Positions 394-14,806 of a stretch of 24,349 nt of DNA are shown piece after piece; position 1 is the first letter of the stretch, and each line of letters starts with the position of its first letter. Position numbers and translations under genes: made by a program. Under the pieces are notes generated by a model. The model was not told the origin of the DNA. It did not search any database and saw nothing but the letters and a program-made list of their open reading frames with translations. The stretch comes from a virus, in the IMG/VR virus record IMGVR_UViG_3300028388_000929, positions 1 to 24,349 of that record; one strand, given 5' to 3'.

Positions 394-569
394 TACGTCG
401 CCCACCCACGCCGCTTAGCCTCACGATAGGCCCACTCCGTCACCAGCCCGACGCCAGCCGCGACAACTAAAACCACGTCAGGGTTGCCCGCCAGCGCCTC
501 TGCGGCCTGCGTGCCGATCACTGCGCCCACGCCATAGCGCAGGATGATCCTTGCAATTGCGCCGTTCAT
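393..569 (-). CDS. Small phage holin (Pam3-gp28-like)
   Basis: The frame is open further upstream, but the ATG at 569 forms an ATGA overlap with the endolysin stop. The extra N-terminal residues upstream are Arg-rich and look non-coding. The 58-aa product has a hydrophobic first half (residues 4-28), a short polar turn around NPD (29-31), a second hydrophobic helix (32-45) and a basic tail (AKRRGW). Two short membrane helices, tiny size and a place between endolysin and spanin fit a holin, which collects in the inner membrane and opens pores that release the endolysin. The composition resembles the small Pam3-gp28 type of putative holin seen in Rhodobacterales phages, recalled from memory and not searched. 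An antiholin role cannot be excluded. Confidence 0.62.
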   Translation of the reverse strand: MNGAIARIILRYGVGAVIGTQAAEALAGNPDVVLVVAAGVGLVTEWAYREAKRRGWAT

Positions 570-1066
570 GCCTTGCCCCCAAAGATGCGCGCCAGCACGG
601 CCACCAGCGCGCCCCACAGCCCGCCGGGTTGTTCCTGCGGGTCGGGATGCGCGGGCGCGGCAATCGAAACGTGCGGGGCTTTCCAATCGTAGTGGTCGCG
701 GTGCAATTCAAAGTGCGGGCCATCGCGCCAGGTGGGCCAATCGCCGCCCCACTGGATCGGCACGCCTTCCTCTGCTGCGATGTGCAAGATCATTTCCGCG
801 TTCTTATCGTAGATCGGCCATGCCCAGACAATATCGCCCCGCGCGTCATAATATGCCACGTCCACAGCGTAGCCCGTCAAGTGCGCGCTGTTCATGGTGC
901 TGGATGCGCCGTTATCGACCAACTCGCGCTGCTCTGCGATGCTGCGAACGCCGCTTGTAACCACAAAGTCATTGGGCGTCTCTTGCAACGCGCGGTCGAA
1001 CACGCGGCGCAAATCAGGGTGCACACCTTCCAAGTTGTGCAAGCTGCGTTCACTCCATCGCCGCAT
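566..1066 (-). CDS. Endolysin, M15 family peptidase (VanY/CwlK-like)
   Basis: The 166-aa product carries the M15 zinc peptidase pattern. There is an SGVR motif at about residues 38-41, SAHLTGYAVD at 60-69 with zinc ligands His62 and Asp69, and DGPHFE at 115-120 with Asp115 as likely catalytic acid/base and His118 as third zinc ligand. L-alanyl-D-glutamate endopeptidases and D,D-carboxypeptidases of this family cleave the peptide stems of peptidoglycan. The ATG has AGGAGG 5 nt upstream. No signal peptide is seen, so export would depend on the holin encoded next, with an ATGA overlap. Unusually, after a His/Pro-containing linker the protein ends in a hydrophobic helix rich in Leu, Val, Ala and Trp (about 148-166), possibly a membrane-binding tail. 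Confidence in the fold is high; the exact bond cleaved is not visible. Confidence 0.9.
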   Translation of the reverse strand: MRRWSERSLHNLEGVHPDLRRVFDRALQETPNDFVVTSGVRSIAEQRELVDNGASSTMNSAHLTGYAVDVAYYDARGDIVWAWPIYDKNAEMILHIAAEEGVPIQWGGDWPTWRDGPHFELHRDHYDWKAPHVSIAAPAHPDPQEQPGGLWGALVAVLARIFGGKA

Positions 1067-1277: not shown

Positions 1278-1558
1278 CGCCCGCCCTCAATCTCGATGCG
1301 CTCCAGTCTGGCGTCAATCCGGCTCAAGAGTGTCAGGATGCTGGATAGCCTTTCGTCGCCCCGGGCGATTTCAGTCTCAGCAACGCGCAACCGGCTTTCG
1401 TGTTCATCAGCCTGGATTTCGAGCGCGCTGACTGCTGCGGCGTTCCTGCTGGCCAAGCCTTGCACCTGAGCAAAGGCTAGCAAACCCGCGCCCAATAGGC
1501 CCACAAGCGTCAGCACATTGCCAAGGCTTATCTGCGAGTTGAATGTTGGTTTTGTCAT
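1274..1558 (-). CDS. Single-pass membrane protein with coiled coil
   Basis: The ATG at 1558 overlaps the spike stop (TGATG) and has a GGTGA ribosome site. An upstream in-frame start would run into the spike gene and is not favoured. The 94-aa product has a short polar N-terminus, one transmembrane helix (about residues 13-33, rich in Leu, Gly, Val and Ala), then a charged heptad-like helix to residue 90 in which Leu and Ile repeat among Glu and Arg. Small proteins of this plan are common at the start of phage lysis modules and may act as holin, antiholin or accessory lysis factors. The sequence itself shows only membrane anchoring and likely oligomerisation. The stop overlaps the next start. 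Confidence 0.65.
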   Translation of the reverse strand: MTKPTFNSQISLGNVLTLVGLLGAGLLAFAQVQGLASRNAAAVSALEIQADEHESRLRVAETEIARGDERLSSILTLLSRIDARLERIEIEGGR

Positions 1559-2703
1559 CACGTCACCGAAAAGAAGTCTACTTGGTGCCAATTGCCATCA
1601 GCATATTTTCGCAGCACTAGCGTATCACCGGCCTCGTTTAGCGACCGATCCGCCCCCAGCGTCAGATTGCCCGTGCCGTTTTTGGCAACCACCGTCACAC
1701 CCACCGCTGCGCTAATGGTCAATACGTCGCCAAACGCGCCGCCGTTGATCGTATCCAGATCATCGCTCGCCGCGCCGCCTTCGGTGTCAATCTTGTGCGC
1801 TTGGTGCGTTGCCGTCACGACCCCGCTGGCAATGGTCAATTCGGCACCTGCCCCGCGTTTCTGCGGGATCACGGCACCGGCCAAAACATTTGGCCCGTCA
1901 TTGCCTGCGCGCCCCTCAATCGCATCGGCCCCGCCCGGCACCAGAATGACCGTTTCGACCTCGCCCACATCAGGCTCCCCCGGAGCCGACAGGATCGCCC
2001 CGACGCTAGACAGCACCAGAGGGCTATCCGCCCCCAGAGTAACGTGGTTCACGGTCGCGTTTGCGTTAATGTCCACCAGTTGGTCAAACCCGCGATACCG
2101 CCCGCTGATGGACAGGCGGTCAAGTGTCTGGTTCGGCACCCGGATCATCGCCACGTTTGACGTGGACCCGGCATACGTCGCGTCCAGATCAATGCGGATG
2201 TTGGACGCGTCGCTAGTCATGGCGATCATCGGTATGTCCGACGGCCCGGCCAATTTCGTTGCGTAGCCGCTGATCGATACGTCGATCATAAGCGCGGTGT
2301 TGTTGGCCCCCCGCGTATCCCAGGCCAGTTTGTCGAAAGTGCAAACCTCCGACGCCTCCTGCGGGAAAACGGCGTTGTCGTCCAGATCGAGTAGAGACAC
2401 GCCCGAGTGAACGCTTGTCCCGTTGTTCACCCAATTGCCCGCGTAGGTCGTGGTTGAGGCGTCGTCCACCAGCGCATAGACAATATCGCCGGTCGTGAAC
2501 GTCTCGCCGTCCACCGTGCCGCCGGTCGTGACCTCGTAGTAATTCTGCGCGGTGGACCCGGACGGGAAGCTGCCCGTGCTGGCATCCCAATCGGCAATCT
2601 TGTAGCCCCAGATCGACCGCAACTTTTCGTTGCTGGACACGATCCGGCCCACACCTTTGACGCTGTGTGCTTTTGCCGTGCGCCCCCCAATAGGTGTTGC
2701 CAT
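1558..2703 (-). CDS. Tail spike/fibre, C-terminal part (frameshifted)
   Basis: This frame, from about 2684 to its stop at 1558, holds about 374 codons that continue the beta-rich protein begun at 4210. The first Met in the frame after the break region is at 2703 and lacks a good ribosome site, so independent translation is doubtful. The product is rich in Thr, Ser, Gly, Asp and Val, with repeated short strand-turn patterns typical of a beta-helix or trimeric fibre. The last 60 residues form a compact segment (alternating hydrophobics, RKYADGNWHQVDFF) like the C-terminal domains of phage tail spikes. It would form the distal receptor-binding part of the spike. The N-terminal half is in another frame; joining needs loss of one G from the run at 2683-2688. 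Confidence 0.7.
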   Translation of the reverse strand: MATPIGGRTAKAHSVKGVGRIVSSNEKLRSIWGYKIADWDASTGSFPSGSTAQNYYEVTTGGTVDGETFTTGDIVYALVDDASTTTYAGNWVNNGTSVHSGVSLLDLDDNAVFPQEASEVCTFDKLAWDTRGANNTALMIDVSISGYATKLAGPSDIPMIAMTSDASNIRIDLDATYAGSTSNVAMIRVPNQTLDRLSISGRYRGFDQLVDINANATVNHVTLGADSPLVLSSVGAILSAPGEPDVGEVETVILVPGGADAIEGRAGNDGPNVLAGAVIPQKRGAGAELTIASGVVTATHQAHKIDTEGGAASDDLDTINGGAFGDVLTISAAVGVTVVAKNGTGNLTLGADRSLNEAGDTLVLRKYADGNWHQVDFFSVT

Positions 2704-4210
2704 CGCATACGTTCGCCTGCACCCCCAGCCGTTCGTCATAAGCAAAGCCAAGGTTTGCATCGACCCACGACAACGTCCAGACAATCCCGCAGCCGATGAA
2801 ATGGTTGTCCCGGATCACAATTGCTTGGTAATATCGCTCGCGCTCGTTCTCAGAATTAGCAGCGTCGTAACTCTGCTTAATATCCAAGGCTGTGATAGAG
2901 CATTCAAAGATGTTCTTTTCAAACACCCATCCACGCAAGCCACCTGTTCCGTCCACGCCGTCGCGAACTGGATTTACCATGTGATTGCCGATCACCTGGC
3001 AGTATTTGGGGCCGTCAATCGTGCCCCTGTTCGTTTTGATCCAGTCGCCAAATTTCTGCGTGTTGGACCCGCTCGCGCGCAGGGTTTCTAGGCCGATGGT
3101 GCCCCGGTTATTGGTGAACACGCCGTAGTCGCATCCCGTATCAACCGACACGCCTGTGCGGGCCGTGTCAAAATGCACGTTTGTCATCTGCCAGTAAGGG
3201 CCGCTGTTGACGTCTAAGCAAATCCCACCCTCTTGGACAAACGCGCATTTATCCACGCGAACGGACGATGCATCGGTGGCCGTAGACAGAACAATGAACG
3301 ACCCCCCGTTGCGCATTTCCAGCGGGGCGACGGGCTGCGAATGGTCGAACCGGATACCGCCAATCAGGCAGTCGGACGGGACGGTAAACACCGCGTCGGC
3401 CTCGGTCGGGATGCCCTCTTCCGCCGCAACCACCGCCTCGCGGTCGCGCATGGCTAACGTCGTGCTGGCAGCCTCGCCGTGCGACAGCCCGTCATAGTCT
3501 GCCGCGATGTAACCCCGCAGCGTGGTGGGCAGCGTCACGGTCGCGCCGGAAAATTCCAGATCGGTGTCCTGAGTGATATAGTCGATGCCGGTCTGGCGTG
3601 CCGCCACGAACGCCCGCAGCGTATCCCCCGCGTCGTCCCCGTCCGATAGCCCGATTTGCGAGGTGTAAACCGCGCCGTCTGCATCCGGCAGGGCATACAG
3701 CTTTACACCGCCCGCTGTCGCAAGGTGATGGTCCGCCGCGCCCGATGCTGCAACCTCATAGGCGAAAGCCTCGCTCGTCGTGCTGAAGGTCACGCCCGCC
3801 GTCACGGTGCCGTTTTGCCCTGCTGTGTAGGTGAGGCCCGTATCAGCCGCCACCGCCGCCGCGTTTGCAAACACGCGCGTCGCTGCGGATGCATCCGCGT
3901 CCTGCAATGCCTCTACGTCGGTTTCAATTGCTGCTACGTCAGCAGCGGCAACAAGGTCCTCTGTCCATGTAGTCGTCCCGCCCCCAAACGTCGCAGCAAT
4001 GGTGTATTGGCCAGTCGCAACGAAGAATTGCGCAAAGCCGTCAGTCCCGACGTTGAACGGATTGGATAGCGCCGTGTTGCCTTCTTCGTCGTCAAAGATA
4101 GACGCAAGCGGCGTTCCGGTCGCGGTTGATCGAACCTCGACCGACCCACCGGAAATAACGTCGCCGGTGTCGCTTTGTAGCGTTGCCTGCCAGCCTGCCA
4201 GATTGGTCAT
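2213..4210 (-). CDS. Tail spike/fibre, N-terminal part (frameshifted)
   Basis: ATG at 4210, ATGA overlap with the preceding gene, GAGGA 9 nt upstream. Residues 1-90 form a Gly/Thr-rich domain with a conserved look (sequence around FNVGTDGFAQFFVATGQYTI), typical of virion-attachment domains of phage spikes. Residues about 95-120 could form a short helical neck. From about 200 to 507 it looks like a right-handed parallel beta-helix of the pectate-lyase or Pfam Beta_helix type, with repeated strands around NVHFDTARTGVSV, FTNNRGTIG, FEKNIFECSITALDI and IVIRDNHFIGCGI. Such spikes bind or cleave host surface polysaccharide. After residue 509 the frame becomes Arg-, Gln- and His-rich with no pattern, meaning translation has left the true frame. 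The intended protein is about 883 aa, continuing in the frame that ends at 1558. Confidence 0.78.
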   Translation of the reverse strand: MTNLAGWQATLQSDTGDVISGGSVEVRSTATGTPLASIFDDEEGNTALSNPFNVGTDGFAQFFVATGQYTIAATFGGGTTTWTEDLVAAADVAAIETDVEALQDADASAATRVFANAAAVAADTGLTYTAGQNGTVTAGVTFSTTSEAFAYEVAASGAADHHLATAGGVKLYALPDADGAVYTSQIGLSDGDDAGDTLRAFVAARQTGIDYITQDTDLEFSGATVTLPTTLRGYIAADYDGLSHGEAASTTLAMRDREAVVAAEEGIPTEADAVFTVPSDCLIGGIRFDHSQPVAPLEMRNGGSFIVLSTATDASSVRVDKCAFVQEGGICLDVNSGPYWQMTNVHFDTARTGVSVDTGCDYGVFTNNRGTIGLETLRASGSNTQKFGDWIKTNRGTIDGPKYCQVIGNHMVNPVRDGVDGTGGLRGWVFEKNIFECSITALDIKQSYDAANSENERERYYQAIVIRDNHFIGCGIVWTLSWVDANLGFAYDERLGVQANVCDGNTYWGAHGKSTQRQRCGPDRVQQRKVAVDLGLQDCRLGCQHGQLPVRVHRAELLRGHDRRHGGRRDVHDRRYCLCAGGRRLNHDLRGQLGEQRDKRSLGRVSTRSGRQRRFPAGGVGGLHFRQTGLGYAGGQQHRAYDRRIDQRLRNEIGRAVGHTDDRHD
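2683..2688 (-). other. G6 homopolymer at the spike frame break
   Basis: On the minus strand the spike reads TAT TGG GGG GCG. With one G fewer it reads TAT TGG GGG CGC and passes directly into the long downstream frame. This is the only place where the two frames join without losing recognisable sequence. It may be a sequencing or assembly error, a real inactivating mutation, or slippage in a variable tract. Confidence 0.7.
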
Positions 4211-4554
4211 ATGCGCACGTCCTCTACCAGCATGTTGCCCACAAGCACGGTGTATTCCTTGCTGTTGCTGGCGGTCACTTTGATATCGTAGTAATTGTTG
4301 CCGACGGGCAGATCGTCGCTTTCCGTGTCGGTCACGTCTACCTGAATGGTGTTATTGTCGGCCAGAACAACGCCAGCCCCGAGCGTTTTGGTAATACTGG
4401 CCGTAGCACCTACAGAGCGGGCAATCGCGAACCGGATTTCCGTTGCTCCCGAAAGGTCAAACAGATTGCCGTCAGCATCTCGCACCGTAAAGAGAAAGCG
4501 CCTGTCGTTGCCGCGCGGTATGGAAAGGTCTGCGGTTGCTACGCGGGCACTCAT
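4207..4554 (-). CDS. Beta-sandwich tail fibre attachment protein (BppU/LtfC-like)
   Basis: ATG at 4554 overlaps the preceding stop (ATGA). The 115-aa product is all-beta in appearance. It has the pattern IPRGNDRRFLFTVRDADGN near residues 12-30, then an LSGATEIRFAIA segment, and YDIKVTASNSKEYTVLVGN near the end. This is the recurring layout of small N-terminal baseplate-upper or LtfC-type domains that sit directly before receptor-binding proteins in many phages. It ends with an ATGA overlap into the spike gene, so it is probably co-translated with it and helps anchor it to the tail tip. The family assignment is by pattern memory, not a search. Confidence 0.6.
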   Translation of the reverse strand: MSARVATADLSIPRGNDRRFLFTVRDADGNLFDLSGATEIRFAIARSVGATASITKTLGAGVVLADNNTIQVDVTDTESDDLPVGNNYYDIKVTASNSKEYTVLVGNMLVEDVRI

Positions 4555-5552: not shown

Positions 5553-7298
5553 CTAGAAAAACACATGCGCGGGCTTGCCGTCGCTAAAATCGGCCCCCGC
5601 GTTGGAAAAGTAAGCCCCGGTTTCCTTCTCGGCCTCGGTGGCGCTACCGTAAACCGGCGCGGCATTCTCAGTGAAGAACCGATACGGCTTGTCGAACTGA
5701 TACGTTTCCGCCACCACGCGCACCGCATGACCGGGATCAAACTCGTCAACCGATATAACTTGCGCCTGCAATTCGGCAATCGCTCCGAACTCGTCCACAA
5801 ACAGGCGACTGTTGATCTTGACCAAATCCCCAGGCTCAACGCTGGCCCGGTCCTTGGCGTCCAGAACAAACGTCATCCGCACCGGCGTGTTCAGATACCG
5901 ATTGACCAGCCGCCGCGCGATGATGTTCGTCGTCGTTTCCGCACCGGCTTGACCAAGCCACGGCTGGTAGATCGTAAAGTTGCGGATGCCGTCATTGCTG
6001 GCTTGGCTTTCCGCCGTCGCGTCCACCTCAAGCGATAGGACAGAGTAATTCTCGCTGTCGTCTGTATCCTCGGTGTAATCGTTCACGCCAGACCAGTAGC
6101 TAACGCGGGTCAGGCGCAGCTTTTCGCGGTTCTCGCGGCTTGTCTCGCCCTCGATCAATTCCGCGCCCTCGGTCAGCGTGGCGAAACTCTCGCCCACGTC
6201 AGGCGGGCGGTTTGCGCGCAGCTTGTATTCCTGCCCGACCTTATCCCACCAGATTGACAGGCCAAGGTCGCAAATCTCGCCAACGGCACGAATGACCGGG
6301 ATCGGCTTGGGGATGGTTCGCGTAAGCCTGATGGTGCTTAACCACCGCTGGCACTCGCTTGTCCAATCGGCAATCGGAATGCGGCTGGAAGGCGTGGCGG
6401 CATAGGTCTGCATCAGGTCTTCCACAACGTCCTGTATCTCGCCGTCCTCGACGCGATAGCAAAGCTGCGCCGTATCATCTGCTTCGTGCGATGCCGCCTC
6501 GGACCCATCAACGCCGCGCTCCGTGATGGTCAGCACGTCACCGCTGCGCGTGTAGGTTATGACCTCGCGGCCAATAGAAACCCGACCGGATGCGTCGTAT
6601 TCGCTGCCGACACCCGATGGCGAAAGCGTCACGTCGCCGGTAAAGCCCGCGCTGATAGCCGCCCCAAGACGACCGTTAGACGGCTTGGGAACCTGCGCAA
6701 ACTCCTCGTCAAATAGCTTGGTCGGGTCTTGCACGGTCAATTCAACCTCGCCCGCGCCGTTTGGCCCGCGCACCTCTGTTGCAACGTAGGTAAAGGTTCG
6801 CATCGACGCGATGCTATCGCCGACGTAGCCGTTCTTTACCTCGACCTCAATGCCGAACAGGCTGCCGCTTCGGGCAAGCTGACGCGGCCAGAACGTCGCC
6901 CGCCCCTCGGCAAGCGGGTCATACAACCGCTCGTCAATGTAGGGGTCGGTTACTCGGTCGCTGTCTTTACCGTCGCCAAAGCGGATCACGACGCGCTCGC
7001 GCTTGCCAAGCGGCCCTTGGTCGCCGTCCACGCCGCTAAGCGATATGCGCGTGGGCGACGTGCTGACGCTCTTGAGAAACGGAAAGATGGTCTGCCCGAC
7101 AATGCCGGTGCGCTGGTTCTTGCTGAAATACAGGTCCAGCGTCGTCGGCGTGTAGTTGTCCGGGTCTTGGCACGTGGGAAACGTTTTAAAGCATTTCAGC
7201 CCCGTCCCTGCGGTGGCCGTGCAAGGTGCCGTGCCGAACGTGTTCGCACACGCCCGCAGCTTCAGCACAACGATCTGTAGCGGCTCACGGCTTGTCAT
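5553..7298 (-). CDS. Tail hub / baseplate protein with Cys-rich N-terminus
   Basis: ATG at 7298 with GGAGG 7 nt upstream. The 581-aa product begins with a Cys-rich segment, Cys17, Cys26, Cys36 and Cys43, in the pattern LRACANTFGTAPC then KCFKTFPTCQD. Similar four-Cys segments occur in tail-tip proteins of siphophages and gene transfer agents, where related proteins (lambda gpL, RcGTA hub) hold an iron-sulfur cluster; here a cluster is inference. The remainder shows beta-rich hub features: a glycine-rich region, an LTVQDPTKLFDEEF segment near 190-205, YTRSGDVLTITERGVDGS near 265-282, and a region around VEPGDLVKINSR late in the protein that is typical of baseplate hub domains. It would form the ring at the tail end through which the tape measure and DNA leave. 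Overlaps the preceding gene by 14 nt. Confidence 0.75.
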   Translation of the reverse strand: MTSREPLQIVVLKLRACANTFGTAPCTATAGTGLKCFKTFPTCQDPDNYTPTTLDLYFSKNQRTGIVGQTIFPFLKSVSTSPTRISLSGVDGDQGPLGKRERVVIRFGDGKDSDRVTDPYIDERLYDPLAEGRATFWPRQLARSGSLFGIEVEVKNGYVGDSIASMRTFTYVATEVRGPNGAGEVELTVQDPTKLFDEEFAQVPKPSNGRLGAAISAGFTGDVTLSPSGVGSEYDASGRVSIGREVITYTRSGDVLTITERGVDGSEAASHEADDTAQLCYRVEDGEIQDVVEDLMQTYAATPSSRIPIADWTSECQRWLSTIRLTRTIPKPIPVIRAVGEICDLGLSIWWDKVGQEYKLRANRPPDVGESFATLTEGAELIEGETSRENREKLRLTRVSYWSGVNDYTEDTDDSENYSVLSLEVDATAESQASNDGIRNFTIYQPWLGQAGAETTTNIIARRLVNRYLNTPVRMTFVLDAKDRASVEPGDLVKINSRLFVDEFGAIAELQAQVISVDEFDPGHAVRVVAETYQFDKPYRFFTENAAPVYGSATEAEKETGAYFSNAGADFSDGKPAHVFF

Positions 7299-8115: not shown

Positions 8116-9917
8116 CCTCGGATCACCTGTAGCCCGCCCCTGTCGCGCAGGTTGTCTAGGATTTGCGTCGTAATGCTGTCGATCACCGCCGGGCTTCCTG
8201 CAAGGTCGCCGCGCCCGCTAACGCCAATGTTAATGTCCAGCCTGTCCGTGGTGCCCTGCGGTGCGGTTTCTGCGGATGAAGCCCCGCCTGCGCCACCGGG
8301 CGCGCTGCCGGATCGAATGGCATTCACGAACCCCATACCCGCAGCCGCAACGGATGCCGCTGCCGCGAACTTGGCGATGAAGGGAAGCTCTGGATCGGCC
8401 AAGACCTGCGCCGCCGCCCGCGATGCATTGATAAGCGCCTCTGCCGCCGCAAGCGACCTTTGCAGGCGCAGAACCTTTTCGTTGTTCGATCCGGTCATTG
8501 CGATCAGGTTGGAAAAATACCCGGCATATGCAGAGGACCGTTGCGCAAGCGACCCTTTGGTAAGGTCATCAATGCGCTGCAGGTGCGCATCCACGGCCCG
8601 CTCCTGCGCGGTCAGGGGATCTTCAACACCGCCGCCGGTTTCGCCCCCGTCGCCGGTGCCGGAACGGCTCTCAAGCGCCGCTGCCTGCCGTGCCCGCCTG
8701 CGCACAAGTTCCATAGCCCTCTCACGCGCTCGATCCGCGTCCGTCTCGGGAATGTCGCCTGCCGCCTGCGGGGGTAAAGCACCGGACGCAATGCCCGCCC
8801 GCATCTGTCTAGCCTGAAACTCGTCGGAAAGCTGCGCGGCGTTGAGCAATTCATCTGCAAGGCGTGTCGCTTGATCGGCGGCGTTGCTGGCTGCTGTGCC
8901 GATGTCCTCTGTTGCCAGCGCGCCAATAGCCGCCGCGCGCTGAACCTCAACAAGCTGCGCGACGATATTGGCAACCTCGGGCGGGATTTGCTCCCCCTCA
9001 AACCGCATATCCCCAATAACGTCCAGCGCCGCCGATGCAGCATCGGCCACGCCGCCAAGGCCCTCTGCGCTGCCCACGGATGAAAGCGCGCGGTTTAGTT
9101 GAACAGCTTGAGCCGCAGTTAGGCCCATGCCTTCCGCCGTATCTTCTAGGTCACGCTTAATGCGATCAAAGTCTACTTGCAGAAATCCGATGCGGTTTTC
9201 GGAAACGCCCTGCTGTTGCGCACGGTCAATGCGTGTCTGCAATTCTACTAACTGGTCAAATTGGTCAGCGGCCTCGCCCAAGCTGTCGCGGATACCATCC
9301 GTTGCCCCCTCAAGCCCGCCCAGCGCCGTGGAAAGCGCCGCCTGCGCCGCGACTTGCGCCCCCCGCTGGATTTCATCGGCAAAGTCGCCAAACTCCTCCC
9401 GAAGCTGCGCAAGCGGCGTTTGCGCCAACGTCGCGGCTGACCGAAGCTGTTTGATCGCCTCGGAAAAGCCCTCCATCTTTTCTTCCGCGTCAACGGCATC
9501 CTCACCGGCACGGAACAGCGCGCCGCCTAGGGGCACCAGCACGGCCACAGCCGCGCCCGCAGCCGCGCCCAAGATGCCCATGCCGCCAAGCAACTGCGGA
9601 AGCTGCTGGCCCAGCGCCACGGTGGCAGACGTGCCCGCACCTACCTGCGTGGCAAAGTCGGCGATTTGAAAGCTGGCGTTTTGAATGCCCGGCCCCATGC
9701 GCGACATGGCCCCGCCGGTGCGCTGGATAGGCACCGCCGCGCGCTGGGATTTTCGCCCCGCACGATCCACCTCATCGCCGAACCGTTTAACCGGCCCGTC
9801 CGCACGATCCGCAGCCCGGCCAACGTCCCCAATGCCGTCCTCGGCGCGCTCAAATCCGGCCTCTGCCTGCGTGGTATCCGCGTCGATCTGAACGTTGATT
9901 TCGGGGATATCAACCAT
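8112..9917 (-). CDS. Tail tape measure protein
   Basis: The frame is open to 9962, but the ATG at 9917 has an AAAGG site 6 nt upstream and overlaps the chaperone stop by only 8 nt, giving 601 aa. The product is highly helical, rich in Ala, Gln, Asp and Arg. An N-terminal segment starts VDIPEINVQIDADT (residues 2-15). A hydrophobic Gly/Ala-rich segment lies near 105-140, long coiled-coil stretches follow, a second Ala-rich segment is near 500-535, and the C-terminus is Gly-rich. This is typical of tape measure proteins, which set tail length and pass through the tail during DNA ejection. By the rule of thumb of about 0.15 nm per residue, the tail would be near 90 nm. Preceded by the tail chaperones, as in most siphophages. 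Confidence 0.88.
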   Translation of the reverse strand: MVDIPEINVQIDADTTQAEAGFERAEDGIGDVGRAADRADGPVKRFGDEVDRAGRKSQRAAVPIQRTGGAMSRMGPGIQNASFQIADFATQVGAGTSATVALGQQLPQLLGGMGILGAAAGAAVAVLVPLGGALFRAGEDAVDAEEKMEGFSEAIKQLRSAATLAQTPLAQLREEFGDFADEIQRGAQVAAQAALSTALGGLEGATDGIRDSLGEAADQFDQLVELQTRIDRAQQQGVSENRIGFLQVDFDRIKRDLEDTAEGMGLTAAQAVQLNRALSSVGSAEGLGGVADAASAALDVIGDMRFEGEQIPPEVANIVAQLVEVQRAAAIGALATEDIGTAASNAADQATRLADELLNAAQLSDEFQARQMRAGIASGALPPQAAGDIPETDADRARERAMELVRRRARQAAALESRSGTGDGGETGGGVEDPLTAQERAVDAHLQRIDDLTKGSLAQRSSAYAGYFSNLIAMTGSNNEKVLRLQRSLAAAEALINASRAAAQVLADPELPFIAKFAAAASVAAAGMGFVNAIRSGSAPGGAGGASSAETAPQGTTDRLDINIGVSGRGDLAGSPAVIDSITTQILDNLRDRGGLQVIRG

Positions 9918-10107
9918 TCTGCGCCTTTCGCTTTGCGCGGACCGTATCGGCCCATTTGGCAATCTCGGCCTGCCGGTCTTCGGTTATGCCCGTGCCCGCC
10001 ACGCCCTGCTGTCCAGCGTAGTGGTCGGCCAACTCATACCATTCCGCCACGGTCATGTCCCAGAAGTCGGACGGCGATATGCCCCAGACGTGCGCGGCCC
10101 GGAACAT
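9910..10107 (-). CDS. Tail assembly chaperone, second reading frame (GpGT-like extension)
   Basis: The frame from the first ATG (10107) gives 65 aa, with the pattern WGISPSDFWDMTVAEWYEL at about residues 8-26. This resembles the short phage and GTA tail chaperones of the Phage_TAC_6 type (LGLxPxxFWxMTPxE). The ATG has no clear ribosome site. The same frame is open upstream, encoding an acidic linker and DWSA before that Met, and reaches back into the end of the preceding chaperone gene in the -1 frame. It is therefore probably made mainly as a frameshift extension of that gene, like gpGT of lambda, with a joint product near 201 aa. Such proteins hold the tape measure during tail assembly and leave before completion. 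Confidence 0.75.
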   Translation of the reverse strand: MFRAAHVWGISPSDFWDMTVAEWYELADHYAGQQGVAGTGITEDRQAEIAKWADTVRAKRKAQNG

Positions 10108-10151
10108 AGCCGACCAGTCTATCGGTGCACTATCGCCGCCCCCGTCATCCT

Positions 10152-10514
10152 CTACTCCGGATCGGCGAAAGCGGCGGTAAACTTTTCCCGCGTGCCCTCC
10201 GCAGGCGAAACGACAAGAATGACGGTCTGCGCAAGGCGAGTGAACCCCTCGCCGTTGTTCGACACGAAGTCCTGCTGAATTGCGCCGTAGATATCATCCT
10301 CGGACACATCATCAGCGCCAGCAGCGCGCAGAAACTCGGCCACCACAAAGGCAACCTCGCTAACCGGCGTCTTTCCGTTCCGCATTCGGTTGATGATATC
10401 CACGAAGGACGAAGGCGCAAGCTGGCCCTCAATCCGGCGCAATAGGCGATTGGATGGGGTGAACGTGTAACGTTTCCCCATCCAGCTAATCTCGTGGTCC
10501 CTGAATACCGACAT
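10152..10514 (-). CDS. Tail assembly chaperone (GpG-like)
   Basis: ATG at 10514 with AGAGG 4 nt upstream. The 120-aa product is helical and acidic, with a conserved-looking segment FTPSNRLLRRIEGQLAPSS near residues 18-36 and VAEFLRAAGADDVSEDDIY near 58-76. This is similar in layout to GTA gp10-type tail chaperones (Pfam Phage_TAC family). It lies between the tail tube and tape measure genes, the standard place. Near its end CGG GAA AAG carries a possible slippery site, and the -1 frame continues open into the next chaperone frame. The short form would be the common product and the extended form the rarer one. Confidence 0.72.
   Translation of the reverse strand: MSVFRDHEISWMGKRYTFTPSNRLLRRIEGQLAPSSFVDIINRMRNGKTPVSEVAFVVAEFLRAAGADDVSEDDIYGAIQQDFVSNNGEGFTRLAQTVILVVSPAEGTREKFTAAFADPE
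10182..10188 (-). other. Possible -1 ribosomal frameshift site in the tail chaperone gene
   Basis: The minus strand reads G GAA AAG in the zero frame, close to the lambda G GGA AAG heptamer. After slipping back one base, the frame reads without a stop through the chaperone stop at 10152 and into the downstream frame ending at 9910. The match to the canonical X XXY YYZ rule is imperfect at the second codon position, where a G-U pair would be needed. Confidence 0.5.
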
Positions 10515-11334: not shown

Positions 11335-11735
11335 AGCTTAAACGCCCTCACGATATCGTCCAGATCGTCGCGCAGAAAGTCATCCACGCCCTTCGCCAGA
11401 AAGCGATTGGACGCGCCCGGCTTTTGCCAATTCTTCTGCGGCCCCTCGTGCACGTAGATAGCATACTCTTGCACTGGCGTTCCGCTTGCCCCGGATGCCC
11501 CGGGCGCACCGTAAGCGATATACGCCAGAAACCCGGTGGAGGTTTTCAGCACCGCCCTCACGTCGCTGTTGATAAGGGCGGACGTGTCAACCGGCACATA
11601 AGGCACCGTGTTCGCATTGATTGCTTGTAGCGATACGGTCAGCATTTCCTCGGTTGCGTTTTCGACACGCTGGAAGGCACGCCGAAGCGCAGCCTGTGCC
11701 GACCGAATGCCCCTTGCTCTGACACGCACGCCCAT
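11331..11735 (-). CDS. Head-tail joining protein, HK97 gp10-like
   Basis: ATG at 11735 overlaps the preceding stop (TGATG). The 134-aa product has a helical basic N-terminus, then VPVDTSALINSDVRAVL near 47-63, AYIAYGAP near 70-77, YAIYVHEGPQKNW near 91-103, and FLAKGVDDFLRDDLDDIVR at the C-terminus. This is the familiar order of HK97-gp10-like and minor capsid or tail-completion proteins: PVDTGxL, then YAxxVHxG, then FLxxA. Such proteins work at the head-tail junction. The call is good at family level, less so for the exact role. Confidence 0.75.
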   Translation of the reverse strand: MGVRVRARGIRSAQAALRRAFQRVENATEEMLTVSLQAINANTVPYVPVDTSALINSDVRAVLKTSTGFLAYIAYGAPGASGASGTPVQEYAIYVHEGPQKNWQKPGASNRFLAKGVDDFLRDDLDDIVRAFKL

Positions 11736-12079
11736 CAGGTCATCACCACGAAATCGGGCAGACCTTCGCCAAACGTTGACGGGTCATGTTGCATTACGGC
11801 CCGCACGGTCTGCGCATCGCTTGGCGGGCTTGCATCCGTCACGTTGCCGATCTTGACCTTCCATCCCTCTTTGGGTGCGCTCGCAACCGACGCCTCTAGG
11901 TAGATGGTTTGGTTCGGCACGAACTCTTCACCCGTGCTGGAAACGCCTTGCCTGCCGCCTGCCTTGAACGAACACGCGAAGGTGCTGCGCGCCCATGCTG
12001 ACGGCTGGCTGTAGGCGTCCAGCGTCGGTGCCCAAAACGTTGCCGTTGCGGTGTATGACCATGCGCTAAAGGTTGTCAT
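11735..12079 (-). CDS. Head closure-like protein
   Basis: ATG at 12079 with only a weak upstream Shine-Dalgarno, 9 nt after the previous stop. The 114-aa product is beta-rich, with a strand segment QTIYLEASVASAPKEGWKVKIGN near residues 57-79 and an LPDFVVM end. The size, small beta-barrel look and the place between connector and gp10-like genes fit a head closure or head-tail joining protein, which seals the portal after packaging. No specific family motif is recognised. Confidence 0.5.
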   Translation of the reverse strand: MTTFSAWSYTATATFWAPTLDAYSQPSAWARSTFACSFKAGGRQGVSSTGEEFVPNQTIYLEASVASAPKEGWKVKIGNVTDASPPSDAQTVRAVMQHDPSTFGEGLPDFVVMT

Positions 12080-12088
12080 TCTCGGCTG

Positions 12089-12382
12089 TTACCCGTGAGA
12101 GCGCCAAATGACGCCCGCTTTGCCCGGTGAGTAGGCCCAAAGGTAGGCTGCGCTGCCCACGCCTGAGAAAAGCGCAGTCGCATCAATGCCCGTCTGCAGT
12201 TGCAAAGGCGCGTATCGCGGCCATTCGTCAGGCTCGCCTGTCGGCGCGCTGTCAGCGCTTGTCGCTGCGACAAACACCGCGCGCGACCCTTTGTTTTGCC
12301 AGCTTGCTGCCGTCAGCCCGCTGTCCGCGATCTGCGTCCATGTGTTTGCCGGAAGCGCGACGTTGCCGTTTGCTGCTGCCAT
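12089..12382 (-). CDS. Small beta-sandwich virion protein
   Basis: ATG at 12382 with AAGGAG 8 nt upstream. The 97-aa product has alternating beta-strand segments: NVALPANTWTQIAD near 7-20, SRAVFVAAT near 33-41, and a C-terminal AYLWAYSPGKAGVIW near 79-93. Small proteins of this pattern, with a tryptophan near the start and a LWA..SG.AGV end, occur in many phage head-gene regions and are usually annotated as virion or head decoration proteins. No enzymatic motif. The role is inferred from pattern and context. Confidence 0.55.
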   Translation of the reverse strand: MAAANGNVALPANTWTQIADSGLTAASWQNKGSRAVFVAATSADSAPTGEPDEWPRYAPLQLQTGIDATALFSGVGSAAYLWAYSPGKAGVIWRSHG

Positions 12383-12394
12383 GGTCCTGTCTCC

Positions 12395-12772
12395 TTACGT
12401 CAGCGACGCGCGGCCAACAGACCGCAGTTGAATAAAGCCATTGCGGCTGATGACGTTCAGAACGCAGCCGTATTGGTCGATGGTCCGCAGCGTTTGCAGG
12501 TAGGACGTTTCGCCCGCCGCCCGCTCTGCGTATTTGCGCGATGCGCCCGATACCGCCCGTTCTTCCAAAACCGCCCCGCGATCCGCAGCGTTCTGAACCA
12601 AGTGGCGCACGCCCAGCACCTTTAACTGCCGCTGGATCGCATCCGGCACGTTGTTCGCGTCAAGGCAAGCGTCGGCCTGATCCACAACGGCGATAAAGCC
12701 TACGATATCGGCCTCACTGGCTTGCGTCGTGAAGCCGTCCTGAACGTCGGCAAGTCTGATTGAAGCGGCCAT
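12395..12772 (-). CDS. Head-tail connector (gp6/adaptor-like)
   Basis: ATG at 12772, 3 nt after the previous stop, with a GGGG site 5 nt upstream. The 125-aa product is mainly helical, with DQADACLDANNVPDAIQRQLKVLGVRHLVQ near residues 30-60 (described here in two parts), then a segment GAVLEERAVSGASRKYA near 66-82. It ends with a beta strand pair. Proteins with this helix set and an R..SRKYA-like loop are typical of head-tail adaptor (gp6-like) proteins that sit below the portal. It follows the capsid genes in the right order. Moderate confidence. Confidence 0.6.
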   Translation of the reverse strand: MAASIRLADVQDGFTTQASEADIVGFIAVVDQADACLDANNVPDAIQRQLKVLGVRHLVQNAADRGAVLEERAVSGASRKYAERAAGETSYLQTLRTIDQYGCVLNVISRNGFIQLRSVGRASLT

Positions 12773-12774
12773 AC

Positions 12775-12972
12775 CTACCCCTCGTCCGGTGTGATTTGTC
12801 TTTCGGGCGGCTGGCCCTCAGCCAGCGCAATATCAAAGTCGATTGAAACCGTCGCTGTGCCGCTGCCCCCATCGACATACGCCGACAGCGGCGTCGAGGT
12901 GGGGAAACCCGTCGCCGTGTTCAAATCAAGCCATTGCCCGGTTAGGGGCGCAGGTCCGATGGGGGCAGACAC
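12775..12972 (-). CDS. Small hypothetical protein
   Basis: A GTG start at 12972, 3 nt after the preceding TAA, with only a GAGG directly before it, so translation probably depends on reinitiation. The 65-aa product is Thr-, Pro- and Gly-rich with a beta-like middle (TATVSIDFDIAL near 39-50) and an acidic end. I do not recognise it. Position suggests a head-tail region accessory or decoration protein. Confidence 0.5.
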   Translation of the reverse strand: MSAPIGPAPLTGQWLDLNTATGFPTSTPLSAYVDGGSGTATVSIDFDIALAEGQPPERQITPDEG

Positions 12973-12975
12973 CTC

Positions 12976-13197
12976 TTACGCCCGCGCCTTGGCCGCTTCT
13001 GCGGTCTTGGAGCCAGCGGGATTGGTCACGGCAGAACGGGCCTTGCCGTCGTCCTCTACCGTCACAAGCCCTGCCCACTTGGCAGGGACGGAAGCTGCGC
13101 CGATGGTGAACGTGTCGCCGGGGCGAACCCGCACCGGCTTGCCTTCGCCGTCGAAGGTCACGAAATTCAGCTTGGGGCTGATGCATTTCAGTTTCAT
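12976..13197 (-). CDS. Small beta-rich head-region protein
   Basis: The open frame is longer, but the ATG at 13197 has GAGGA 7 nt upstream and follows a terminator hairpin; the 73-aa form is chosen. The product starts MKLKCISPKLNFVTFDG and has a short beta pattern (VRVRPGDTFTI near 23-33, WAGLVTVEDDGK near 42-53) and an Ala/Lys-rich tail. Short proteins of this type between capsid and connector genes are common in siphophages but poorly studied. They may be decoration or assembly aids. Confidence 0.7.
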   Translation of the reverse strand: MKLKCISPKLNFVTFDGEGKPVRVRPGDTFTIGAASVPAKWAGLVTVEDDGKARSAVTNPAGSKTAEAAKARA

Positions 13198-13223
13198 GGA
13201 TGTATCCTCGGAATGTGCAAAGA

Positions 13224-13249
13224 GGCGCGGCCCGGTGAAAGGCCGCGCC
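13224..13249 (-). terminator. Rho-independent-like terminator after the major capsid gene
   Basis: On the minus strand a perfect 9-bp GC stem (GGCGCGGCC with GGCCGCGCC) encloses an 8-nt loop and is followed by TCTTTG. The T tract is weak, so read-through is likely. It sits in the 59-nt gap after the capsid stop and before the next ribosome site, a usual place to lower expression after the most abundant protein. Confidence 0.7.
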
Positions 13250-13256
13250 CAAATGG

Positions 13257-14318
13257 TTAGGCGATCTCGCGCGCGTAAAGCACGCCCGACCGGCTGTCGT
13301 AGTCGGTCTTGATCTCCAGACCCACGTTGGACCACGTAAGGAAGTTGTAGTTGTCCATCGGGTTCTGGCGCACCAGCGGCACAGTCGTGACAGCCATGCC
13401 GACCAGCGGGCGGATGAACTGCGCATCCAGAACGACACCGATCAGCTCGTTGCCGGACAGTTGCGCGTCTTCCTTGATGTCAGCCACGCCGTTGAGGTTC
13501 AGCAACGATTGCAGGATCGTGCCAAAGCCAACGTCAGACGTGCTGAAATACCGCTGGAAGTTGGACATGATTTCCCGCGACACATACCACGTGATGTCAT
13601 TGCTGACATTGTTGGTGATGCGCAGGCTGTCCACGAGGCTGATCCACGCCGAACGAATGTCGGTGGCCGTGGCCGAGGAGGACGTGAAGTCGATGTTGAG
13701 GCCGGAAGCGTCAAGGTCCACGTCAACGGTTTTGGCGCTGTTCTTGATACCCGCCGCAGCGGTGCCCTTGAACGTCACGTCAACGCCGTTGTAGATGTGC
13801 CCCGCAATGGTTTCCTGCATCAGACGCACCGAGTTTGCCTGATCGTCCACCAGACCGTCGAACCCTTCGGAACGCTGGCCCTCCATCTCCATCCACGACC
13901 GGCCAAAACCCGTCTTGTGGACGACCTTGATGGTGCTGTCGTAGGTGTAGTCGGCCTTGTCCATCTCGACGGGCGTGGTGCCCTCCAAGTCGGTCACGAC
14001 AACGCCACTGTCCGACGCCTGACGATAGATGTGTTCGACCTTGCCAACGGGCAGAGCCTTCGCCAGCGGCAGAAGATCGTTCAGCAGCGTCAGGTTCGGG
14101 GCGCGCAGAAGCTGCTTGGTCTGGCTTTCAAACTCCCGATACACGTCCTGCGGGATGATCGCGGCGGCGTTGCCGTGATACATGCCGTTCGCGGGCAAGT
14201 GCTGCGCATTGTGCGCCGCGAAATGTTCCCGCTGGCGCGTGACGTGCTGCTTTTGCAGCTTGTGATGGTGAGCCGACCGCGACGCATTGGCGGCAAACTC
14301 TTTGTCAAAGTAGAGCAT
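13257..14318 (-). CDS. Major capsid protein (HK97 fold, DUF6260-like)
   Basis: ATG at 14318 with AAGGAGG 6 nt upstream, the strong signal expected for an abundant protein. The 353-aa product has a His/Gln/Arg-rich N-terminal arm (residues about 12-42). An IIPQDVYREFESQTKQLL segment (54-71) follows, then an E-loop-like charged region. The central part has SWMEMEGQRSEGFDGL, and the C-terminal domain ends with NFLTWSNVGLEIKTDYDSRSGVLYAREIA, with typical beta strands. The plan and the place after cement and protease genes fit an HK97-fold capsid protein, apparently of the DUF6260 group. The N-terminal arm is short for a full delta domain, which agrees with a separate scaffold encoded in the protease gene. 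Confidence 0.85.
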   Translation of the reverse strand: MLYFDKEFAANASRSAHHHKLQKQHVTRQREHFAAHNAQHLPANGMYHGNAAAIIPQDVYREFESQTKQLLRAPNLTLLNDLLPLAKALPVGKVEHIYRQASDSGVVVTDLEGTTPVEMDKADYTYDSTIKVVHKTGFGRSWMEMEGQRSEGFDGLVDDQANSVRLMQETIAGHIYNGVDVTFKGTAAAGIKNSAKTVDVDLDASGLNIDFTSSSATATDIRSAWISLVDSLRITNNVSNDITWYVSREIMSNFQRYFSTSDVGFGTILQSLLNLNGVADIKEDAQLSGNELIGVVLDAQFIRPLVGMAVTTVPLVRQNPMDNYNFLTWSNVGLEIKTDYDSRSGVLYAREIA

Positions 14319-14329
14319 CAGGGGCCTCC

Positions 14330-14806
14330 TTACGATGCGTGCTTGATCGACACGCCGACATAGCGTGCACGAATGCGACCGTTGGCCCCGGAAGGCGCAA
14401 GGGCCTCTTCCGCGACAAACATGACGGTATCGGGCGTTGCGCCCGTCAGCGTTGCGCCGACCACCAAGCCAGACGAAGCCTCCGAAGTCAGAGGATCGCC
14501 AACGGCCACGTCCTCACCATCCTTCAGGATGATGTTGTAGGTGCAGCCCACCTCGGGGACGAAGGCCGAAGCCGTGTCGCCGATGGTCAGCGCCTCGGTC
14601 ACAGCCTTCTGCTCGATGGTGTTCATGTCAGCGATGTAGAAGTCGCTGGCACCGCCACCCGTGGTCAGCAGTTCCCATTCGCCGTCCGCGTCCAGCGCGA
14701 CCAGCATCCCCGGAAGGATCGTGTTGCCCGCGTCGATGACGGCGGAACGCTTGATGGGCCGAATCTTGTCAGCCGGACCCGAAAAAACGACGTTTGCGGT
14801 GGTCAT
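14330..14806 (-). CDS. Capsid cement/decoration protein
   Basis: ATG at 14806 with GGAG 9 nt upstream. The 158-aa product is a beta-barrel-like protein: PIKRSAVIDAGNTILPGMLVALDADG near 17-42 (in outline), YIADMNTIEQKAV, FVPEVGCTYNIILKDGEDVAVGDPL near 82-106, then a Gly/Ala-rich region and FVAEEALAP near 130-138. This layout is shared by small capsid cement proteins (gp24- or DUF2190-like) that bind the outside of HK97-type capsids and always sit next to the capsid gene. Strong context on both sides. Confidence 0.72.
   Translation of the reverse strand: MTTANVVFSGPADKIRPIKRSAVIDAGNTILPGMLVALDADGEWELLTTGGGASDFYIADMNTIEQKAVTEALTIGDTASAFVPEVGCTYNIILKDGEDVAVGDPLTSEASSGLVVGATLTGATPDTVMFVAEEALAPSGANGRIRARYVGVSIKHAS

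Follow-up and report, generated by a model that had tools for sequence, protein, structure and literature searches.

Bacterial surface genes are known to vary by slippage at G tracts (PMC10877375), and a search of the literature for homopolymer switching of phage tail spikes returned nothing. Among described phage proteins, the tail protein B621_gp20 of Marinomonas phage P12026 (YP_006560258.1) shares with the spike studied here an attachment module of the first ~70 aa (43.5% identity) and is also positioned after the tail fiber gene, but it comprises 494 aa, has an unrelated remainder annotated as a major tropism determinant domain and is unbroken. The spike gene presented here is located on the minus strand of an IMG/VR virus record of 24,349 bases, which was analysed at its full length (the window).

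The minus strand of the window shows the standard head-tail gene order of tailed phages: small and large terminase, portal, a Mu F-like protein, a DUF6260 protein in the position of the major capsid gene, tail tube and tape measure, followed by tail tip, small tail-region proteins, spike and endolysin. The intact tail-tip or 'tail fiber' protein (5553..7298, minus strand, phrog_11439) shows that the spike gene occupies the place where receptor-binding proteins are usually encoded. A small tail-region protein of unknown function is found upstream of the spike (4207..4554, minus strand, phrog_1084) and the endolysin downstream of it (566..1066, minus strand, Peptidase_M15_4 / phrog_465). An alphaproteobacterial host is suggested by the large terminase, whose nearest match is that of Paracoccus phage vB_PkoS_Pkon1 (58.7% identity). 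In the region separating tail tube from tape measure we noted an ORF at 10514..10152 (minus strand) overlapping an ORF in the -1 frame (stop-to-stop 10293..9910), and the same overlapping layout is present at 5830-6177 and 6141-6425 of a related contig, IMG/VR 3300009472_000001 (L016). Tail assembly chaperone pairs are made by programmed frameshift in many phages, and the overlapping ORFs at 9910-10514 look like such a pair; no slippery site was pinned down within them.

The first ~82 residues of the spike form a module that is also found at ~20 loci. In these it mostly lies 0.5-1.3 kb past the tail-tip gene and is followed by different ORFs or continuations. Receptor-binding proteins are expected to show just this pattern of a tail-attachment module with differing continuations after the tail tip; with its place after the tail-tip gene, its shared N-terminal attachment module and its variable remainder the spike shows all of these traits, and we infer a receptor-binding role for it. 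In three loci of this tail cluster (L020, L030 and L035) the attachment module ends in a short ORF (207-244 codons), and a separate tail gene overlapping this ORF comes next; anchor and adhesin thus seem to be encoded by two genes there. As to the fold of the spike, the sequence pattern makes a right-handed beta-helix plausible, as does a match to Pfam Beta_helix that stays below the cutoff (E 0.071, 13.2 bits, cutoff 25.9). The structure models were of low confidence, with a mean pLDDT of 29.7 for the N-terminal part of the spike and 38.6 for the homologous protein of L016, probably because relatives are lacking.

Two minus-strand ORFs cover the spike gene, one of 665 aa (4210..2213) with a plausible ribosome-binding site at its start at 4210, and one of 408 aa in the +1-shifted frame (2784..1558). 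The coding signal lies in the first frame down to ~2690 and is then carried by the second, which runs on for 375 codons without a stop after the break. The true spike gene is 4210..1558 on the minus strand, encodes ~883 aa and ends at 1558, not at 2213. Its N-terminal part (2690..4210, minus strand) comprises 507 codons in the first frame, with the ~82-aa tail-attachment module, a linker and the probable beta-helix region, while its C-terminal part (1558..2685, minus strand) comprises 375 codons plus the stop in the shifted frame. The 665-aa ORF ends in ~155 residues (2213..2682, minus strand) that are read out of frame and do not belong to a real protein; no homologue was found for them and their codon phase is wrong. 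The original prediction had placed the spike at 2213-4210, with a loss of frame at 2683-2688 and a restored protein of about 883 aa. The loss of frame is borne out by third-position GC and codon-usage likelihood, and the length and the start at 4210 were correct; the end has to be moved to 1558, as 2213 is only the stop of the out-of-frame tail. Automatic gene calling would here split what is one spike in the relative into a spurious 665-aa protein and an equally spurious second gene.

The third-position GC signal changes frame at about 2770-2650, and the codon-usage likelihood, with the 17 other genes of the window as reference, places the switch at about 2653-2713 on the minus strand (~97% of the likelihood weight). 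Within this interval lies a CCCCCC run on the plus strand at 2683-2688, that is, a G6 run on the coding strand of the spike gene, as the most likely site of a one-base length change. It is one of ten 6-base runs in the window, the longest class of run in these 24 kb, and by simple arithmetic the chance of a 6-base run in a random 61-base interval is ~3%. G6 runs are not enriched in the window but rarer than expected (4 seen, 21.7 expected). An A4 run at 2671-2674 is also inside the interval and carries a similar likelihood weight; because it fits almost as well as the G6 run, codon usage does not fix the exact base of the indel. Of the G6 run as break site, the original choice, we can thus say that it lies in the switch interval and is the most run-prone candidate there; it is also the likeliest site of the length change, with the A4 run of similar weight as its competitor. 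In shuffled sequences the downstream frame of 375 codons was never left open (0/2000), and the out-of-frame tail of 155 codons in 4/2000.

The comparison with related phages that had been proposed was carried out by first collecting relatives of the tail tip and then searching these for the spike. This led to L016, where the spike homologue (11624-14752) is a single unbroken ORF of 1042 aa matching both pieces. Residues 146-879 of the window spike are matched at 34-38% identity, with 35% for residues 146-507 and 37% for the C-terminal part, which includes a conserved end (GNL.LGADR...DGNWHQV); right at the break the alignment is weak. When all related ORFs were searched by blastx with the full window as query, the L016 ORF was matched in two frames, one covering 3775-2648 and the other 2589-1573; for the remaining genes of the window no such double match to a related ORF was seen. 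Like the window spike, the L016 spike follows the tail-tip gene and has the same C-terminal end, but it differs in its N-terminal module, has one more WDAS..GTV module and lacks a G run at the position matching the break. The two copies of this module (WDAS.G.FP...GTV.G..F..G...LVD.ASTT) are located at 13450-13880 of L016, the window spike has one, and the module is also present in tail proteins of L015 and L018. L016 was the only full-length relative of the spike that we found. Among viral contigs, in a collection from which records nearly identical to the window may be missing, the protein search gave no further relative; the alignment search and one DNA-pattern search each returned only the L016 contig again, and another DNA-pattern search returned nothing and so no copy of the run with another length. 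No relatives were found among genome contigs, plasmids and PDB sequences, nor in 385 alphaproteobacterial genomes (searched without a positive control), and the matches among phages were to the end modules only.

Conservation of two separate proteins in relatives, which had been named as the case against a broken spike, is disfavoured because L016 carries both pieces in one ORF that is continuous across the break. This homologue supports one broken gene rather than two, and the spike has the usual position after the tail tip and an attachment module common to many phages. An anchor plus an independently started adhesin would have its parallel in L020, L030 and L035, where a short anchor ORF precedes an apparently independently started tail gene, but the split falls there after about 200-240 codons and here inside the region continuous in L016, and no clear ribosome-binding site precedes the start codons of the second frame; of all readings we consider this the least probable. 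Since codon bias is strong on both sides of the break and 375 codons without a stop follow it, the break appears to be recent and not old. We assign a probability of roughly 0.55 to the reading that the locus holds one modular receptor-binding spike gene of ~883 aa, whose frame is broken in the contig, at the G6 run or beside it, by a recent difference of one base in length, most likely through an error in the metagenomic contig consensus; the phage population would then carry the unbroken gene. This figure and our gradings of the alternatives express judgement and were not computed.

Miscounts of a six-base run are rare in short-read assemblies, so that a genuine mutation, with recent slippage breaking the spike in the genome of this phage or of a dominant variant, is a serious rival to the consensus error. 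It is consistent with run slippage being a common natural mutation, with a run of the longest class in the switch interval and with the lack of a second split gene in the rest of the window. Against it, spikes are normally under selection, and as the downstream frame shows no relaxed constraint, the mutation would have to be very recent; the phage would then be adsorption-defective or use another receptor-binding protein, or a non-infectious genome was sequenced by chance. We regard such a mutation as possible and a consensus error as more likely. Decay of a prophage, in which the spike would have been knocked out, was rejected: terminase, portal, capsid, tape measure, tail tip and endolysin are all open, and the intact state of these head and tail genes, together with the lack of a second gene matching a relative in two frames, gives no hint of decay. 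Of the causes originally offered, an assembly error thus still stands, now beside a one-off mutation, while prophage decay and phase variation found no support.

A true slip site at the G6 run, for DNA or ribosome, that gives truncated and full-length spike and varied adsorption, we consider unlikely overall. Reversible changes in run length that alternately allow and prevent a full-length spike within the phage population are quite unlikely: a G tract is indeed located in a receptor-binding gene, but phase-variable tracts are usually longer than 6, the tract is missing in L016, the sole relative, and is in this sense neither conserved nor recurrent, no copy of another length was found in the viral contigs searched, which may lack near-identical records, and G6 runs are fewer in the window than expected, not more. 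If the run length did vary in a clonal phage, this would be an example of phase variation in a phage receptor-binding gene; nothing here favours it. Slightly less probable again is a translational +1 frameshift on the G run, yielding both the 665-aa and the ~883-aa protein. The overlapping frames are open, and a glycine tRNA slipping +1 on the run would re-pair fully, but there is neither a stalling stop nor a rare codon (GCG comes next, the most frequent of the Ala codons), the local RNA shows no notable folding (z = -1.36), L016 has neither run nor shift, and the 155-aa tail has no homologue; the stalling codon or stimulatory structure and the conservation of programmed +1 frameshifting are thus absent at this site.

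Compared with bacterial surface genes showing homopolymer phase variation, such as the polyG genes of Campylobacter, the window spike has in common a G run in a surface-contact gene, but differs in its short tract, which is not conserved and shows no observed length polymorphism. The spike gene is best read as an ordinary modular phage receptor-binding gene.
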